NCBI GenBank assembly: GCA_001797815.1
Contig: MGQK01000012.1
Coordinates: 229-18,365, forward strand
DNA from: Deltaproteobacteria bacterium RBG_13_61_14
GTDB taxonomy: Bacteria > RBG-13-61-14
Reading direction: 5' to 3'
Length of the DNA: 18,137 bases
Shown here: in pieces, positions 5,275 through 12,404 of the stretch
Numbering within the stretch: position 1 is the stretch's first letter
How the letters are laid out: each line of letters starts with the position of its first letter
Notes under the pieces: generated by a model
What the model saw: the letters and a program-made list of their open reading frames with translations, nothing else
Databases searched by the model: none
What the model was told of the DNA's origin: nothing
Position numbers and translations under genes: made by a program

Positions 5275-5742
5275 TCAAAGGGCAGCCGATTTTCTCCTTT
5301 GCCGTTTTCTCCGCTGCGCTTGATAATGGGTGGCGCATAATCCCCTCGCCACCACCACCTTGCCGCACTTTTTCGCCGAGCAAGCCTTGGGTTCCACCCG
5401 CGGCCGGCCCCGCTTCAGCGCCTTCACCCCGTGCTTGAGCCGAAACCGCATCCGCTGATAATGGTAATGACAAAGCCCCTTGGCCGACGCCCACTTCCCG
5501 CATCCGGGGGTCGCGCAGCGCTTACCCTTGTTAATAATTCGTTCCGGCTTGGGCGCGGATACCTTGGTCACGGCCCGGCCCCCGGCTTTGATTCCGGCTT
5601 GCCTCCGCCGCTTCCTGACCCGAGCGGCCGCCGGCCGGCCGGTCCGCCCCAGTTTACTCACCCCTTGCCTGATCTCCCGGAGATCCCCGAGCATCCCTCG
5701 GAGTAACCCCTCCAGACCGCTGAGAACGCTTCCCTTCGCCAT
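5275..5742 (-). CDS. Small basic protein with two Cys3His zinc knuckles and an AT-hook-like motif
   Basis: A 155-residue, very Arg/Lys-rich protein. ATG 5742 was chosen because AAGGAGG lies five bases upstream; the open frame extends back to a TTG at 5799 with no such site. Residues 1-30 form a likely amphipathic helix (LEGLLRGMLGDLREI). Two copies of a C-x4-C-x9-C-x2-H motif follow: C76, C81, C91, H94 and C121, C126, C136, H139, each closing with GLCxxHYQ. Between them RGRPRVEP (111-118) contains the GRP core of an AT-hook. Similar knuckles occur near the ends of some phage HNH nucleases, but no nuclease domain is present here. DNA binding is the natural inference. It lies downstream of, and on the same strand as, a paralogue sharing the second knuckle; 199 bases separate them. 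Confidence 0.7.
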   Translation of the reverse strand: MAKGSVLSGLEGLLRGMLGDLREIRQGVSKLGRTGRPAAARVRKRRRQAGIKAGGRAVTKVSAPKPERIINKGKRCATPGCGKWASAKGLCHYHYQRMRFRLKHGVKALKRGRPRVEPKACSAKKCGKVVVARGLCATHYQAQRRKRQRRKSAAL

Positions 5743-5912
5743 CGCCTCCTCCTTCTTTCCGATCATCCACAGCTTACTCGAATTTCGAAGATTTTTCAAG
5801 TCCTATTTGAAACGGGAACCTGGTCGTGATCGGGGACCTGGACGAATGAAAAGTATATCGTATGTCCTATGTCGGGACAAGAAATGTGCCGGAACTGCAC
5901 CATTCAATCAGG

Positions 5913-5939
5913 TAATGTTCAATGTAACGATCTGACCCC
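5913..5939 (-). repeat. GGGGTCAG-type dispersed repeat, copy A
   Basis: On the minus strand this reads GGGGTCAGATCGTTACATTG followed by AACATTA. It begins two bases beyond the stop codon of the zinc-knuckle/XRE gene. Copies aligned in the same orientation at 7072-7105 and 7115-7139 share GGGGTC, a central TT(A/C)C(A/T)TT and AAC(A/T)T. Such GGGGTCAG words are, as I recall, typical of short non-autonomous repeats mobilised by REP-associated tyrosine (Y1) transposases; no such transposase is in this window. Confidence 0.65.
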
Positions 5940-5941
5940 TT

Positions 5942-6781
5942 TCACCGCGACAAGCCCAGGAGCCAGTCGGCCGAGACCTTACAGCGCCGGGCGATCTTCA
6001 CCACCGTCTCCGGCTTCGGACCCACGGCGCCCTGCAAGTAATAACAGACGTGGGCCGGACTTAAGCCCACCCGCGCCGCGAATTGGCTCTGGTTGAGCCG
6101 GCTCTGGCGGAAAAGCCGGCGGAACCTGGGCCAAAACCCCTTGGCCGGGCGGGGCTTCGGTCTGCGCCGGGCCGCGGGAGCGCGAGATCCCAGGTCCTCC
6201 TGCAATCCCAGCAGCCAGTCGGTGGAAACCCCGAAGACGCGGGCGATCAGGATCACGTGGGGGAGATTCGGCCCGCTTCCCGCCAAATAACAGCAAATCG
6301 TTTCCTTGCCGAGACCCAGGCGGGAGACGAGCCCCCTTTGATTCAGCCCGCTCTCCACGCAGAGCCGGCGAAACCGGTCCGGAAACAATTTCAAATTGTG
6401 CCGCCAGGCCTCGCGCTTCCGCTTGGCCTTGGTGGCGGTTCCCAGCAGCCAGGCCGGAAGGCCGCGGCTCGCCTCGTTCAGATGCCGGAACCCCACCGGC
6501 CGGCGAGGCCGAGGCGGCATCTTCTTCCTCCGCTGCCGTTGATAGTGGGTGGTGCACAGTCCCTTGGCCACTACCCATTTGTCGCAGGAGCGGGCCCGGC
6601 ACCGCCGCGGCTTCACCCGGGGCCGGCCCTGCTTGGTCTTGGGCATGGCGCTCCAACTGCGCCGCCGACTCAACTTCTGATAATGCCGCTTGCAAAGGCC
6701 CCTCGCCGTCGCTTCCCGGTCGCATCCCGGCGCCGAGCAGGGCCGGCCTTTGTTCTTCACTTGTCTCCGCCTAACTCCCAT
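5942..6781 (-). CDS. Zinc-knuckle/AT-hook-like protein with tandem XRE-type helix-turn-helix domains
   Basis: Numbering from ATG 6781 (279 residues), two Cys3His knuckles of form C-x4-C-x9-C-x2-H lie at C15, C20, C30, H33 and C61, C66, C76, H79, each ending GLCxxHYQ. QGRPRVKP (51-58), just before the second knuckle, has an AT-hook-like GRP core. After a basic linker come two homologous XRE-family DNA-binding domains at about 133-193 and 216-277. Both open with FRRL, carry LNQ and end in S(T/A)DWLLGL, so the domain was duplicated internally. Knuckle 2 is nearly the same as that of the smaller downstream gene. The start is uncertain: ATG 6781 lacks a good ribosome site, and GTG 6760, preceded by GGCGGAG, would remove seven residues. 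It is probably a DNA-binding regulator or nucleoid-associated protein. I know no named family with this full architecture. Confidence 0.75.
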   Translation of the reverse strand: MGVRRRQVKNKGRPCSAPGCDREATARGLCKRHYQKLSRRRSWSAMPKTKQGRPRVKPRRCRARSCDKWVVAKGLCTTHYQRQRRKKMPPRPRRPVGFRHLNEASRGLPAWLLGTATKAKRKREAWRHNLKLFPDRFRRLCVESGLNQRGLVSRLGLGKETICCYLAGSGPNLPHVILIARVFGVSTDWLLGLQEDLGSRAPAARRRPKPRPAKGFWPRFRRLFRQSRLNQSQFAARVGLSPAHVCYYLQGAVGPKPETVVKIARRCKVSADWLLGLSR

Positions 6782-6914
6782 CCCAAACAACCCCGCTCAG
6801 TGCACGGATAATGGCGGCGCCGGCAGCCGGCAGTCCGCCCTTCGCTTTCGGCCCAAGGCCGGGCTCTTCCCGCGAAACCCTAACCCGGCCGAGCCGGAAC
6901 CAAAGAGAAGATTT

Positions 6915-6996: not shown

Positions 6997-7071
6997 CATT
7001 CCTGTATTAAATTGTGCCCACTTTGGCTACAATTTCAGCCGTAAGGGACTAATCCCTGAACTTACCCGTTC

Positions 7072-7139
7072 CATTAGCTAAAGTTTAAAGTAAAGTTCTG
7101 ACCCCGATCTTCCTATGTTTAATGGAACGATCGGACCCC
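7072..7139 (-). repeat. GGGGTC-type dispersed repeat, two tandem copies (B1, B2)
   Basis: Read on the minus strand, B2 (7139-7115) is GGGGTCCGATCGTTCCATTA then AACAT, and B1 (7105-7072) is GGGGTCAGAACTTTACTTTA then AACTTTAGCTAATG. They are same-orientation copies nine bases apart and match copy A at 5913-5939. The pair sits just beyond the 3' end of the defence operon, while a related GGGGTCAGGCCCC block (12423-12443) sits just before its promoter, so these repeats bracket the operon. Confidence 0.7.
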
Positions 7140-7154
7140 AAAACATTCTTATTC

Positions 7155-8168
7155 TTATTCAAATTGCAGCCTATTAGCCCAATCTATCACCTCGGCTATT
7201 ACCTTCTTGACTTCAGTAAGATTAATAACCGTAACGAAAGATGGCGTTATTGAAAAAAATGTTCTAAAATGAAACTCGATAGTTCTTTCTCGCTTGTACA
7301 TTGGAAGCCCTGTTTCAATACGGCTTAGGTCGTAATTCCCATGAGACGAATGAAATTTCTGCCATTTCCAATCTACCTGCGCAATACTGCTCGGGCACCG
7401 CAAAAGCAGCCTTTTACTAACGGTAGAAATCTTAATCAGTGGTAATCTTTCTTCGGACTGAGATTTAATTAGCCTTGAGTAAATACCAGGTTTGAGAATT
7501 CTTAGCTCTGCATTAGTTACCAGCAAAGGAACTAGAATGATCGCCGCTGCTGGATCACATTCTTTTGTGAACATTCTAAATCTTTCAATTGCAACGTAAT
7601 GCAAACAGTCTCGTAGCTGATGGAGACCTGTGCTAATAGTCGGTATCTTGGGATTATTCTTCATAGTTTTATTTATTGTATCAGACTCTTCTTGAAATCC
7701 TAATGTTGTTCCACGAACACACTTAGGTATTTGACCATGCGAAAGCTTGGCTAATTTAATTTTTTTAGGAAACTTTATAAGCTTATTTTCTTCTGAAAAA
7801 GGTAAATGGGGTTTTCTGTCTTGCCAAAGAAATGGGCGCCATTCGTCAAAAACAATTTGAGATAAGGAAGTGGAATCCGGCATAAAAAGCCAGATCAGTT
7901 TTTGAGGATCGCAATATTTAAATTCTATTAAAAAATATATTTGAATATGACCTGGATCAACGGGATCATGTTCAGAAGGCACACTGGCAGCAAAATCAAT
8001 GGAACGTTGAATGGGTATCAAGTTCTCATCTAAAGAGCTAAACCCATACTCTGGCTCGATCCAATCGGCTTTGAGTTCTGATATTAAAAAATCATAAACA
8101 GTCATTTCAAGCGGAATACCAGAGGCCATGATGGTCCTAGAATCCGAAAACTTAGATTTTCCTAACAT
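7155..8168 (-). CDS. Hypothetical protein with candidate PD-(D/E)xK nuclease motif, third gene of defence operon
   Basis: A 337-residue, AT-rich gene whose ATG lies four bases beyond the preceding stop codon, so it is surely cotranscribed. An internal ATG at 8129 (residue 14) is an alternative start. No family is recognised with confidence. The N-terminal quarter contains YDFLISELKADWIEPEYGF, then SIDFAAS (Asp58) and, about 24 residues on, FLIEFKY (Glu82, Lys84). That is the spacing and strand pattern of a PD-(D/E)xK nuclease core (Asp, then ExK), with Glu31 in the preceding helix. The remainder (ILVPLLVTNAELRIL at about 215-229) resembles the shell of a restriction-like fold, but this is inference. 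No signal peptide or membrane segment is seen. The AT-rich codon use is unlike flanking metabolic and pilus genes and suggests transfer. Confidence 0.8.
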   Translation of the reverse strand: MLGKSKFSDSRTIMASGIPLEMTVYDFLISELKADWIEPEYGFSSLDENLIPIQRSIDFAASVPSEHDPVDPGHIQIYFLIEFKYCDPQKLIWLFMPDSTSLSQIVFDEWRPFLWQDRKPHLPFSEENKLIKFPKKIKLAKLSHGQIPKCVRGTTLGFQEESDTINKTMKNNPKIPTISTGLHQLRDCLHYVAIERFRMFTKECDPAAAIILVPLLVTNAELRILKPGIYSRLIKSQSEERLPLIKISTVSKRLLLRCPSSIAQVDWKWQKFHSSHGNYDLSRIETGLPMYKRERTIEFHFRTFFSITPSFVTVINLTEVKKVIAEVIDWANRLQFE

Positions 8169-8172
8169 CCCG

Positions 8173-9054
8173 TCAAGCCTTATGAATTATGTTAGGTGTT
8201 GTCACCGATCTCTTTATGTTAATTAGTTTCTGTTCGAACATCCATTTTTTCAGGACTTTTGGAATTTCATTTTCGGCATTTTGTGGATTAAATTCTCTAT
8301 ATATTCTTCCTATTAAATCAGTTGTTAAATATTTAAGTGTTTTATCCTTTAGAAGGCATACCGGTTTATTAAGCGCCAGCATGTAGCCAACCTCAAGAGA
8401 TACATTGGGATTAATATCATCTTCATTAATTCTTTCAAATATTGCAATACCAAATCTGCATCCATGCATATAGGTTCGAATGTTGTTAAAAAGTTCGCTG
8501 GCATATTCTTTATCGTCCGCTCTCAATACTTTTATATTAAATAATTTGCAAGTATCCTTCACAGCTTGTATAACCTTTTTATGTATTGGTGTATTTTGAT
8601 ACTTCATCATTAAGAATGCACAATTGTCGCTTTCTCTGTGATCTTTATGAAATAGCTGTAGAAATGAAGATATTTCCGCCGGAACATCAATAAATACATT
8701 TTTATTGGAATCCAAAGAAGAAATAGTAAAACTTACAAAACGACACGTATGACCTGTAGGAAACTCTGGAGAAACTCTCGCTATACCTTGCAACCAGTTA
8801 ATATTTCCTAATATATTGAATGAGGTTCTAAGCTTATCCAGGTCGATAAGCCACTGCTGATAATTTATAGCGGTTAGCCATTCAATTCCCTCTTGTTTTA
8901 CTACATCTAAAATTATTGATAACATTTCTCTTTTATTCGTTATATCAGATTTAAAAAAAACAATATTGATTGCCTCTGAAGGCGAATCGTGATTGCCGCG
9001 AATATCATAATTGGGGCGATTATAGTAATCAATCTTTATATTAATGTTTATCAT
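8173..9054 (-). CDS. Protein with TIR-like / nucleoside deoxyribosyltransferase-like C-terminal domain, second gene of defence operon
   Basis: A 293-residue, strongly AT-rich gene whose ATG overlaps the stop of the restriction-modification gene (ATGA, 9051-9054). Residues 1-140 are not recognised. Residues 144-255 form a Rossmann-like domain: CAFLMMKYQNTPI, then NIKVLRADD (Asp180), IRTYMHGCRFGIAIFE, and NPNVSLEVGYMLAL with Glu221, followed by KPVCLLKD. The (F/V)MM, D, NPNV.(Y/L)E.G and KPV.LLKD order is characteristic of predicted nucleotide-binding TIR-like and nucleoside 2-deoxyribosyltransferase-like domains. Several of these cleave NAD or nucleotides in anti-phage systems. The unique N-terminal half could be a sensor or partner-binding part. 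NAD cleavage is inferred, not shown. Leakage of such an effector would be toxic, so activation by infection would be expected. Confidence 0.85.
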   Translation of the reverse strand: MININIKIDYYNRPNYDIRGNHDSPSEAINIVFFKSDITNKREMLSIILDVVKQEGIEWLTAINYQQWLIDLDKLRTSFNILGNINWLQGIARVSPEFPTGHTCRFVSFTISSLDSNKNVFIDVPAEISSFLQLFHKDHRESDNCAFLMMKYQNTPIHKKVIQAVKDTCKLFNIKVLRADDKEYASELFNNIRTYMHGCRFGIAIFERINEDDINPNVSLEVGYMLALNKPVCLLKDKTLKYLTTDLIGRIYREFNPQNAENEIPKVLKKWMFEQKLINIKRSVTTPNIIHKA

Positions 9055-12000
9055 TTCGGCTCCACTTTTAATGGGCTATTTTCAATTATATTGATTTCTT
9101 CCTCATTCAGACAATACAATTCATACACAAGCCGATCAATCTGGGCGGCCGTGGTAGAAATCTGCCGATCCAGGCTTTCCTTCTCATGCGCTGTTTTTAC
9201 CTCTGGCTTCTGCTTGTTCAATTTCAACATCGCTTCAACCAAATCATCAAACTGTTTGTAAAGAGTATGATCCTTAGAGTTTTTAATCTCCTGAATCGGA
9301 AGATTCTTTATAAACCGAGACTCGTAGCTGAAATAGCCGCCCCTCATGGTTGTCGCCGTCTGGCGGATAAACCACTCCAAGAGTTTGCTGTTCAGAAACC
9401 CCAAGACATACTGCCGCGAATACTCGGGCAATACCAGGATTCCATAGCCGCCTGCAACCCCTCCTGTAAAAAAGGTCTCACCAGTTTCATCTAAAGAAAA
9501 GGAAGAACGGGCGGCAAGATCGGGCGTAAAAATCTTAGGCAAGTGCATCACATCAAGAGCCTGATTTCTTCCATAGGCATACCAACTTTTACCACGCATC
9601 TTGCCTCTTTCACGGTTCTCCAAGTAGAGTTTATTATCAAGAAAATACTCCCATGTCAAGGGATAACGCGATTTCATGATTGTTTCCGGAATCAATCCCA
9701 TGGAACCTTCCGGTTGGCGCTCGTATGGAAAAAGGATCAAGCGGTTGGTATGGGACAAATAATAGGATTTGCTGTCTCCCCCTTTGATCAAAGGATGAAG
9801 CAGGTCCGGCTCCAGCCAATAGTCGGCCTCTTTTTCTTTGGAGTGGACTTTAACCTTTTTCTTCTCCCGTTTGATTTCTTCCACGATAAAGATTGCATCG
9901 GCGCTGGTCTTGAGGCCCTGAAAGATGCGACTGGTGACATGCTCAAGCCTAGTCGGCATCTTCTGTAAGCGTTCCAGTAAAGACGCGCCCGGACCGATGG
10001 CAAAGTTCCACTCATCTGACGTCAGAGTTGACGAAGAGACAATTCCTTCTATGGCTTTGCCGCTTCTGCGCCACTCGGGTAGATCGTCAACTTTCAATAC
10101 ATGGCACTGGTCCCGGCCGGATTTTTCCAGGAAAAGCAAACAGGTATAATTGCTGGCGCCTTCAAACACTTGTTGGTCCCCGAAATGGACCACCTCTGCC
10201 AGGTTCTTCCCCCTGGCCAGGTAGTCACGCAAAGGCTGGCCATATTTTGCATTAAAGAACTTGTGCGGGAGAATAAAGCCGAAGCATCCTTTGCTGGTTA
10301 AAAGTTTCAGGCTCTTCTCCACGAAGACGGCATATATATCGTAATTGCCCTTGCTCGCGGCGGCATAATGCCTTTTGAAGTATTTCGCATCTAATGGCGT
10401 TGACTCGCTCATGGTCTGAATTCGGATATACGGCGGATTCCCGATGACGACATCGAAGCCGGTCTTATGGTTCGCGGTTCCCGGTTCGCGGTTTCCCTTA
10501 ACACCTCTGCCCTCTGTGCTCTTTGTGTCTCGGTGGTGAAAAATTTCCGGAAATTCTTTGTCCCAATCAAAGGCATTGATGCGGAGAATTTCTTCCTGAT
10601 CGAACATGGCAATTTGCTGGCCCTGATAGAAGTCGGAGCCGATCAGGGAATTGCCGCATTTGATGTTGGCGGAGAGGTCGGGGAGGGCGCGTTGTTTGTA
10701 GAAGAGTTTCAACTGGTTGAGGGATTCTTCGGTCTCGCCTTCCAGGCATTTCAAGAGGAGCGAGAGCTTGGTGACTTCCACGGCCTGGGGGTCTATGTCA
10801 ACGCCGAAGATGTGATCGAGCAGGATGCGTTTGCGTTCGGCGGTGGTTAAGCGCCAGGCGCCGCCGGCGGCCTGATACAATGGTGCGCGGGTGTGGGCAC
10901 CCGCGCCCCTAAAGTCCGTTGCGCGGCTGAGGTCAGCCGCGCCCCGAAAGTCTTGACCATTTGATTTTTCTTCTTTCGTGCTCTTTTCGTGTGCTTCGTG
11001 GATATACTGATCGCGGTGCCAGTCGAGGAGATATTGATAAGCGCCGAGGAGGAAGGAGCCGGAGCCGCAGGCCGGATCCAAGATTCTTAATGGTTGCGCG
11101 TCTTGGGCGCGATGAATCGCGCCCCTACCTTTTTGTAGCCCACCCTTCGCGGCCTGGCGAAGGGTGGGGTTGCCTGACACCTGCTCGGGGGTTTTGCCCT
11201 CGAGCAATTTGCCAACGGTATTTTTGACGATGTAGTCCACGATATAAGTCGGCGTGTAGTAAACCCCGCCGGCTTTTTTGACCTCCGGCTTTTCCTCCAC
11301 CTTGGCCTGGTGGCCGGCGGTGAGGCGGATGACCTTGCCCAGGAATTGCTCATAGACCTGGCCCAGGATATCCGCGGGCAGCACCGAGAACTCATACGGG
11401 CTTTCCGGGTAATAGAGGCTCTTGAGGATTTCCTTGAGCACCTTGTCGTCCAGGACCAGGCCGGGCGTGAGGGTGTCCGGCTCGGGCCGGTCCTTTTCTT
11501 TTTTGAAGTGGAAGAGCCCGGAGTTGTAGCGGTCGTCGGCGTTGGCCAAGAGGTGAAAGAGGCGTTGGTAAACGCGCTCGCCGTTGTGCAAGGCCTGGAG
11601 CCGGCCGTATTGCTCGATGCCGCGGTCTTCGCAGATGCGCAGAAAGATGATGCGGTCGAGCGTGGCCTGGACCGCGAAGTTGAGCTGGCGGGTGTTGAGG
11701 CGGGGATTGCGGAGCGCGATATTTTTGGCCAGCTGGTCCCGCCAGGCCTCGATCTCCTGGAGGAAAGCGGAATCCACCTCCGCGGTGCCTTTCTTTTTGC
11801 GGGTGGTCTCGGCGAACTGGTCAAAGGAGCCTTTGAGCACGGCGTCCTTGGCAAAAATGTCGGCGATCTCGGACCAGCGCTCGAGGTATTCGGTATAGGC
11901 CAAATAGAGGATGCGGCCGGCGCTGGCCTTGTCGTTGGCCGCGGGCTTGATCCGGCAGTCATAGACCGCGAATTCCTCGAAGTCGGAGAGGACGGAGAGG

Positions 12001-12353
12001 GGGAGCTTGGCCGACCAGGCGTAGCGGCGGAGTTGGAAGGCGGGTTCGGGGTTGTGCTTGAGGTCCACCCCGGGCTTCTTGGCTTCGAGGAAAAATTTGC
12101 GGGCGCCGCCGATGCGGAAGCAATAGTCGGGCGCTTTGGTGACGCCGCCGACCTTGAGAGCGGCCTCGTGGACCACGTCTTTGTAGGGTTCGGCAAAGCC
12201 GGAGGCGTTGTGCACGTCCCAGCCCAGGGCGATGAAGAAGGGGTCGAGGAATTCGACGCGGAGCTGGGTCTCGTGGTAGCCGGGGGAGAGGTAGGCTTCG
12301 CGGTTGTGTTGGAAGCGGGCGATTAGGGAGGAGATTTCAGCCGGTGCGGTCAT
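9051..12353 (-). CDS. Type IIG-like restriction-modification protein (fused nuclease, N6-adenine methyltransferase and specificity domain)
   Basis: A 1100-residue single-chain restriction and modification enzyme. ATG 12353 has AAGG nine bases upstream and a promoter 24 bases further up. The TTG at 12404, which would add 17 residues, lies on that promoter's -35 hexamer and is rejected. An N-terminal nuclease core shows APDYCF (Asp76) and FLEAKKP (Glu90, Lys92). Methyltransferase motif I is ILDPACGSGSFL (424-435), with GVDIDPQAVEVTKLSLLL shortly after. Catalytic motif IV is IGNPPYIR (637-644), of the N6-adenine class. The C-terminal third (TTMRGGYFSYESRFIKNLPIQ near 1018-1038) is a TaqI-type specificity domain. 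It methylates self DNA at a short asymmetric site and cuts unmethylated DNA near it. Unusually, three linkers contain in-frame repeat sequences (see repeats). GC content falls from the 5' to the 3' half, hinting at a mosaic origin. Confidence 0.93.
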   Translation of the reverse strand: MTAPAEISSLIARFQHNREAYLSPGYHETQLRVEFLDPFFIALGWDVHNASGFAEPYKDVVHEAALKVGGVTKAPDYCFRIGGARKFFLEAKKPGVDLKHNPEPAFQLRRYAWSAKLPLSVLSDFEEFAVYDCRIKPAANDKASAGRILYLAYTEYLERWSEIADIFAKDAVLKGSFDQFAETTRKKKGTAEVDSAFLQEIEAWRDQLAKNIALRNPRLNTRQLNFAVQATLDRIIFLRICEDRGIEQYGRLQALHNGERVYQRLFHLLANADDRYNSGLFHFKKEKDRPEPDTLTPGLVLDDKVLKEILKSLYYPESPYEFSVLPADILGQVYEQFLGKVIRLTAGHQAKVEEKPEVKKAGGVYYTPTYIVDYIVKNTVGKLLEGKTPEQVSGNPTLRQAAKGGLQKGRGAIHRAQDAQPLRILDPACGSGSFLLGAYQYLLDWHRDQYIHEAHEKSTKEEKSNGQDFRGAADLSRATDFRGAGAHTRAPLYQAAGGAWRLTTAERKRILLDHIFGVDIDPQAVEVTKLSLLLKCLEGETEESLNQLKLFYKQRALPDLSANIKCGNSLIGSDFYQGQQIAMFDQEEILRINAFDWDKEFPEIFHHRDTKSTEGRGVKGNREPGTANHKTGFDVVIGNPPYIRIQTMSESTPLDAKYFKRHYAAASKGNYDIYAVFVEKSLKLLTSKGCFGFILPHKFFNAKYGQPLRDYLARGKNLAEVVHFGDQQVFEGASNYTCLLFLEKSGRDQCHVLKVDDLPEWRRSGKAIEGIVSSSTLTSDEWNFAIGPGASLLERLQKMPTRLEHVTSRIFQGLKTSADAIFIVEEIKREKKKVKVHSKEKEADYWLEPDLLHPLIKGGDSKSYYLSHTNRLILFPYERQPEGSMGLIPETIMKSRYPLTWEYFLDNKLYLENRERGKMRGKSWYAYGRNQALDVMHLPKIFTPDLAARSSFSLDETGETFFTGGVAGGYGILVLPEYSRQYVLGFLNSKLLEWFIRQTATTMRGGYFSYESRFIKNLPIQEIKNSKDHTLYKQFDDLVEAMLKLNKQKPEVKTAHEKESLDRQISTTAAQIDRLVYELYCLNEEEINIIENSPLKVEPK
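10469..10538. repeat. Repeat block read in frame inside the restriction-modification gene (third site)
   Basis: Two elements abut. 10469-10497 is a direct duplication, GGTTCGCGGTTCCC followed by GGTTCGCGGTTTCCC. 10501-10538 is a CTCTGTG-type array (CTCTGTGCTCTTTGTGTCTC) related to the hairpin at 6915-6996. On the minus strand they encode FHHRDTKSTEGRGVKGNREP and a short tail, immediately before the FDVVIGNPPY catalytic motif. In relatives I remember, the linker from FPEI to the GFD of this motif is only a few residues. Confidence 0.75.
10884..10955. repeat. Two tandem GC-rich palindromes encoding a 12-residue near-repeat (second site)
   Basis: Perfect palindromes lie at 10885-10906 (arms GCGCGGGTG and CACCCGCGC, 4-base loop) and 10921-10942 (arms GCGCGGCTGA and TCAGCCGCGC, 2-base loop). 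Each is followed by GCCCC(T/G)AAAGTC. Together they form two 36-base units in the restriction-modification gene and encode QDFRGAADLSRA followed by TDFRGAGAHTRA, a protein near-repeat produced by the DNA palindromes. Confidence 0.8.
10971..11003. repeat. CACGAA-type repeat block read in frame (second site)
   Basis: The minus strand reads ATCCACGAAGCACACGAAAA then GAGCACGAAAGAA, four CACGAA-like units. This is the same type as the inner arms of the intergenic hairpin at 5086-5174, including the leading ATCCACGAA. It encodes IHEAHEKSTKEE in the restriction-modification protein, directly beside the palindrome pair at 10884-10955. Confidence 0.75.
11105..11168. repeat. Two perfect GC-rich palindromes read in frame just before methyltransferase motif I (first site)
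   Basis: 11105-11124 has perfect 9-base arms GGGCGCGAT and ATCGCGCCC with a 2-base loop. 11139-11168 has perfect 12-base arms CCCACCCTTCGC and GCGAAGGGTGGG with a 6-base loop. On the minus strand they encode NPTLRQAAKGGLQ and KGRGAIHRAQDAQ, a stretch between the usual KTPEQVS and LRILDPACGSG segments where relatives I know have almost no linker. Confidence 0.8.
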
Positions 12354-12376
12354 GGCGGGTGGCCTTGGATGGCTCC

Positions 12377-12404
12377 ATACTATCTTGATTATTATTTCTG
12401 TCAA
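12377..12404 (-). promoter_or_regulatory. Sigma70-type promoter of the restriction-modification operon
   Basis: On the minus strand, TTGACA (12404-12399, perfect -35) is followed after 16 bases by TAGTAT (12382-12377, 4 of 6 match to the -10 consensus). The ATG at 12353 would lie about 17 bases after the expected transcription start. The -35 hexamer overlaps the alternative TTG start of the open frame, which argues against using that TTG. Confidence 0.6.

Follow-up and report, generated by a model that had tools for sequence, protein, structure and literature searches.

Two adjoining genes for putative tandem zinc-finger proteins, one fused to a duplicated XRE domain, in a deltaproteobacterial genome

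To our knowledge, only a few unrelated protein families organize and silence bacterial chromosomes. In Ros/MucR and H-NS-like proteins the N-terminal part oligomerizes and the C-terminal part binds AT-rich DNA (PMC9779718, PMC6936261). Specifically, the small Ros/MucR proteins combine an N-terminal oligomerization region with a C-terminal DNA-binding finger, and an H-NS-like action has been proposed for them; the ligands of the Ros finger are C79, C82, H92 and H97, with the spacing C-x2-C-x9-H-x4-H (PMC9779718). Two other described systems are close to the locus analysed here, in their parts. The accessory fingers of phage HNH and endonuclease VII proteins (PHROG 5351, 1271, 19978 and 3593) have the same finger, tandem layout and spacing, but these proteins carry a nuclease, a domain missing from the pair described below. 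Phage repressors of the XRE/HTH_3 type, in turn, resemble both C-terminal domains of the larger protein of the pair, which differs from them in that the domain is duplicated and fused behind two putative zinc fingers.

The stretch of DNA that was analysed (the window) is 18,137 nucleotides long. It contains two adjoining genes on the minus strand, with gene B upstream of gene A and a gap of 199 bp between them. The features are as follows, fingers being given as predicted zinc fingers.

5942 to 6781, minus strand: gene B, 279 amino acids from ATG, with two fingers, a basic linker and two XRE domains.
6680 to 6739, minus strand: finger B1, CSAPGCDREATARGLCKRHY, from the motif search; pLDDT 93-95; Zf_WRKY19 at 28.9 bits in the genome scan.
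6542 to 6601, minus strand: finger B2, CRARSCDKWVVAKGLCTTHY, after QGRPRVKP; from the motif search, the finger alignment and the structure model.
6194 to 6385 (approximate), minus strand: XRE domain 1 of B, from an HTH_19 match and the alignment with XRE domain 2.
5945 to 6127 (approximate), minus strand: XRE domain 2 of B, ending in VSADWLLGLSR, from an HTH_3 match and model helices at residues 215-277.
5852 to 5880, minus strand: promoter-like site TTGTCC-17-TATACT between B and A, from a consensus scan only.
5275 to 5742, minus strand: gene A, 155 amino acids from ATG, with a predicted N-terminal helix, a basic linker containing GRP, two fingers and a basic C-terminal helix.
5458 to 5517, minus strand: finger A1, CATPGCGKWASAKGLCHYHY, with ligands Cys 76, Cys 81, Cys 91 and His 94, from the motif search; pLDDT 91-93.
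5323 to 5382, minus strand: finger A2, CSAKKCGKVVVARGLCATHY, after RGRPRVEP, from the motif search; pLDDT 96-97.

An earlier note on this DNA, made from the letters alone, had made its interpretation depend on the two frames being translated, and we regard both as such. The GC content at codon positions 1, 2 and 3 is 0.62, 0.56 and 0.73 in A and 0.62, 0.57 and 0.82 in B, where the coding pattern is clearest, while in the alternative ORFs that overlap the two genes this pattern is absent or less clear. Moreover, A and its closest paralogue, on host contig C114, give a dN of 0.26 and a dS of 0.50 over 163 codons. Gene A probably starts at the ATG at 5742 and not at 5799, the longer TTG form being probably wrong, because a strong Shine-Dalgarno sequence, AAGGAGGAGG, precedes that ATG and the paralogues begin at the equivalent Met (MAKGSVLSGLEGLL in A, MGKGSALRGLEKLL in the C114 paralogue and MPKGSALGGLEKLL in the relative on contig C75). 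As for B, a TTG at 6790 is also a possible start. An upstream extension of B was considered and rejected: the stretch before its start gave a weak alignment to A that runs through a TGA, and on reading the homology was unconvincing. Given the promoter-like site between the two genes, A may have its own promoter. No Rfam match to a structured RNA was found within the window.

The motif C-x4-C-x9-C-x2-H occurs four times in the window, whereas base-shuffled windows contain 0.013 copies on average. Each protein has exactly two of them, as had been noticed at first reading together with a GRP core before the second, which is part of GRPRV in both; in A, the two are separated by KRGRPRVEP. Conservation of the cysteines and the histidine had been named beforehand as a point on which the interpretation could fail. 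The ligands proved at least 90% invariant over 29 aligned rows of viral and bacterial relatives, and the first two cysteines, which were not part of the pattern used to fetch the viral rows, are conserved all the same. In the host genome, which encodes ten such fingers in six genes, the fourth ligand is a histidine in all ten. We infer that the fingers of A and B bind zinc. In a template-free prediction that used aligned relatives from viruses and bacteria, they reach pLDDT values of 91-97. In each, the first two cysteines lie in a short beta-turn, and the C-x2-H pair in the first turn of the helix that comes after it. Among solved structures the nearest to this predicted fold are A20-type fingers (A20 ZF7, Z 4.0, 1.2 Å over 31 residues), followed by the zinc domain of Sulfolobus topoisomerase III (Z 3.0), although for such a tiny domain these matches only show a common arrangement. 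A20 fingers, which bind ubiquitin, have a CCCC ligand set that is not that of A and B, where the fourth ligand is His. A sequence search of the PDB gave no relative of the finger, only chance C2H2 and HiPIP matches, and Foldseek returned nothing below an E value of 0.001 for the models of either protein.

In its general plan of N-terminal helix, basic linker and putative DNA-binding finger, A parallels the Ros/MucR proteins of alpha-proteobacteria. The Ros finger, however, has the spacing C-x2-C-x9-H-x3/4-H and a larger fold, whereas A and B have tandem C-x4-C-x9-C-x2-H fingers and basic GRP linkers, and the ROS_MUCR profile gave no Pfam match to either protein at E values up to 10. A would work like Ros/MucR and yet, judged by its sequence, is not a member of that family, from which it differs in spacing, in ligand set and in profile. 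Another profile that aligns to the finger is Zf_WRKY19 (PF24906), a family named for a plant protein. By hmmscan it scores 26.7 bits for B and 23.7 bits for A, with a gathering cut-off of 27; finger B1 in the genome scan (28.9 bits) is borderline, and A and every relative scanned fall below the cut-off. No model of Pfam, NCBIfam or PADLOC spans A or B from end to end, and NCBIfam has nothing for A. The PADLOC matches of B are weak and limited to the XRE part, and its identity as a defence-system protein was therefore rejected. The statement that no named family has this architecture thus stands for the whole proteins, as no end-to-end model exists among these collections and the searches for a full-length relative of B found none, but it does not extend to their parts, which are known: the finger of phage HNH/endonuclease VII proteins, at the edge of Zf_WRKY19, and the XRE domain of phage repressors.

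The phage connection of the finger can be specified further. Among protein families, the finger block matches PHROG 5351 best, a cluster annotated as 'HNH endonuclease' (E=8.5e-16 for B). This match spans positions 4-86 of the 171 of the profile, that is, its N-terminal part with the fingers only, and a Pfam scan found no catalytic HNH domain in A or B. On viral contigs, the relatives have between two and five fingers, and in most cases an HNH or endonuclease VII-like domain comes after them. On the basis of the PHROG matches and of these viral relatives, the finger can be described, from its sequence relationships, as an accessory module of phage DNA enzymes that is known but has no name.

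It could be argued from the same data that A and B are mere leftovers of phage HNH/endonuclease VII nucleases, in which the fingers were kept and the nuclease was lost, with B fused to a prophage repressor and with little or no present function; the PHROG annotation, the viral relatives that join fingers to nucleases and the phage-repressor-like half of B all agree with such a history. However, the PHROG matches concern the finger part only, with the HNH match absent, the frames of A and B are intact and keep a coding GC pattern, and the ligands are retained in all ten fingers of the six host genes. In addition, the plan of helix, linker and finger is common to chromosomal proteins of other genomes. 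Taken together, we consider a history of nuclease decay unlikely. The earlier suggestion that the proteins are phage-derived is plausible for their modules, but not in the same way for genes A and B, which have a host-like GC content and chromosomal paralogues.

With regard to the XRE half of B, Pfam HTH_3 matches in two stretches (E=7.8e-14, 51.9 bits with a cut-off of 23). The two domains align to each other with a score of 128, while shuffled sequences gave a mean of 23 and a maximum of 53; the internal XRE duplication proposed for the larger protein is therefore well founded. Residues 132-281, which include both domains, match phage regulators, and the domain end GVSxDWLLGL recurs in many viral regulators as GVSADWLLGL. 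At about 40%, the XRE domains of B also match single-XRE proteins on host contigs C81 and C107. The combination of two fingers and two XRE domains was not found elsewhere among 60 relatives, 97 genomes of the G030 phylum (described below), phages, plasmids and viral contigs. In one of the other genomes (L004:1480-1713), a 77-amino-acid single-XRE protein was seen by eye directly before a gene resembling an IHF/HU subunit.

The relation between the two genes is most visible in their fingers. Fingers A2 and B2 are identical at 19 of 31 positions, A1 and B1 at 15 of 31 and A1 and A2 at 13 of 31, in agreement with the common origin that had been read from the second finger. More generally, comparisons of second with second fingers give 19/31 and 18/31, and those of first with second fingers 13-16/31. 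As second fingers match each other better than first fingers match second ones, the tandem block was duplicated as a unit. The XRE pair would then have been gained by B, or would never have been present in the lineage of A.

The ten fingers of the host genome are distributed as two each in A, B and the proteins on contigs C114 and C127 and one each in those on C75 and C66. A has two paralogues, on C114 (63-64% identity) and on C75, which resemble it in having a helix at the N-terminus and linkers that are basic or AT-hook-like. These two genes sit, as seen by eye, among unrelated genes, with no common neighborhood. Two other genomes of the same order, the only two compared, have one finger each, in proteins of 111-116 amino acids that also contain a helix-like segment at the N-terminus and several AT-hook cores. 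The succession of N-terminal helix-like segment, AT-hook or basic linker and finger is, in fact, the plan of five relatives of A (C75, C114, G001, G002 and G016).

In a broad sample the finger is present in 16 of 386 genomes. In the phylum of genome G030, probably Myxococcota, 161 of 195 genomes encode finger proteins, a single genome giving as many as nine matches. Helix-linker-finger proteins recur there (G030, L107 and L108), and neither Pfam nor NCBIfam names a family for the small finger proteins that were scanned from this phylum. One family within the phylum conserves an XRE-finger protein of about 165-170 amino acids (L103:1474-1986, L113:1480-1974 and L118:1102-1584, among others). 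In content these proteins are the closest to B, as XRE and finger occur in one chromosomal protein; their order is opposite, however, with one N-terminal XRE domain and one C-terminal finger, and they probably represent an independent fusion, since they do not align to B over the whole length. In L028 the finger is attached, by eye, to a winged-helix-like domain. Other arrangements were also noticed. Long proteins with a coiled-coil-like N-terminus, a helical domain at the C-terminus and one or two fingers occur in L026:2677-3879 (Latescibacterota), L073, L105, L110 and L114, the last three belonging to the G030 phylum, and the two that were scanned (L026 and L105) gave no convincing family match. 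A further protein (L012:1471-2187, by eye) has a signal-like start, a coiled coil, a membrane-like segment and one C-terminal finger, and is possibly a membrane-anchored version. Among open-licence papers, no description of the finger in chromosomal proteins was found.

Both proteins are strongly basic, with net charges of +39 for A and +55 for B. GRP is the core of the AT-hook: its two sites in B are above chance for the composition (p=0.0045), while the single site in A is not (p=0.17). In the relatives of A, AT-hook cores exceed chance in G001 (0 of 2000 shuffles), G002 (p=0.013) and C75 (p=0.034). The N-terminal helix of A (residues 6-33), which is absent from B, has intermediate confidence (pLDDT 52-77) in a model of A as a monomer.

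We propose that A and B are sister chromosomal DNA-binding proteins, A being a small architectural or silencing protein and B a transcription regulator, a reading in which, taken as a whole, we place about half of our confidence. What the sequences show is the paired finger motifs, the positive charge, the XRE domains, the coding frames and the paralogy; DNA binding, oligomerization and regulation are inferred. The N-terminal helix of A would make dimers or oligomers, and its fingers, together with the basic and AT-hook-like linkers, would grip DNA with low sequence specificity, as Ros/MucR and H-NS-like proteins do. In B, the XRE pair would read a specific operator, with two half-sites recognized by one chain, and the tandem fingers would strengthen or extend the contact. 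As the finger block is common to both proteins, B may share the sites of A, compete for them or link to them.

RNA and ribosomes are equally possible ligands for highly basic, small zinc proteins. At least A, if not both, could be RNA- or ribosome-associated instead of DNA-binding: such a role would also agree with the size, the charge and the zinc-finger content, and there are weak structural matches to ribosomal proteins (4v8p_AL, Z 2.8; 3j6b_W, Z 2.2). Such Z scores are, however, too low to mean much, and the contexts in which the finger block occurs are those of DNA, namely the XRE domains in B and nucleases, HTH domains and AT-hooks in relatives. DNA appears to be the likeliest ligand, since the finger is joined to DNA-acting domains (HNH/endonuclease VII and XRE) and AT-hook cores are found in the relatives of A; an RNA-related role has, in our judgement, only a small chance of being correct.

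Returning to A and B as DNA-binding proteins, they can be viewed, from sequence, as known modules in a new combination. The group of chromosomal finger proteins to which they belong has no name and is surprisingly widespread, and the new class of nucleoid regulator suggested in the earlier note is a plausible candidate reading. A more far-reaching version, which we find doubtful, is that A and its relatives form a new zinc-dependent class of nucleoid-organizing or foreign-DNA-silencing proteins, near-universal in one phylum, and that B, as well as the XRE-finger proteins found in that phylum, is a partner targeted by sequence, bringing this class to chosen operators or displacing it from them. 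If true, a helix-linker-finger family that has multiplied within genomes and become fused to repressors would represent another independent solution to chromosome silencing, and would link accessory domains of phage nucleases to chromosomal regulators. Even if its function were ordinary, the finger merits a curated family, as it is now filed through phage HNH clusters or a borderline model named for a plant protein.

The type IIG restriction-modification genes at 7155-12404 might have B as their controller (C protein), but such a role is very improbable: B lies on the strand of that cluster, about 370 bp downstream, and C proteins are XRE domains, with C.AhdI among the weak fold matches of B, but a C protein has a single domain and its gene normally lies ahead of the restriction gene, the paralogues of A are not beside restriction-modification genes in the stretches read, and the GC content of 0.32-0.54 in the cluster against 0.64-0.67 in A and B, the mismatch on which this role was rejected, indicates different histories and places the pair outside the island.

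The AT-rich cluster itself is probably an acquired defence island. Besides the type IIG restriction-modification enzyme, which PADLOC matches at E=3e-256, it encodes a protein whose weak match is to nucleoside deoxyribosyltransferases and one of 337 amino acids without a Pfam match. Elsewhere in the window, at 1112-2164, a Fic protein matches the SoFic model of PADLOC (E=1.1e-65). Finally, the intergenic stretches at 5842-5945 and 7055-7140 are 75% similar and both end in TCTGACCCC; with partial, degenerate copies elsewhere in the host genome, they are possibly remnants of a mobile repeat.
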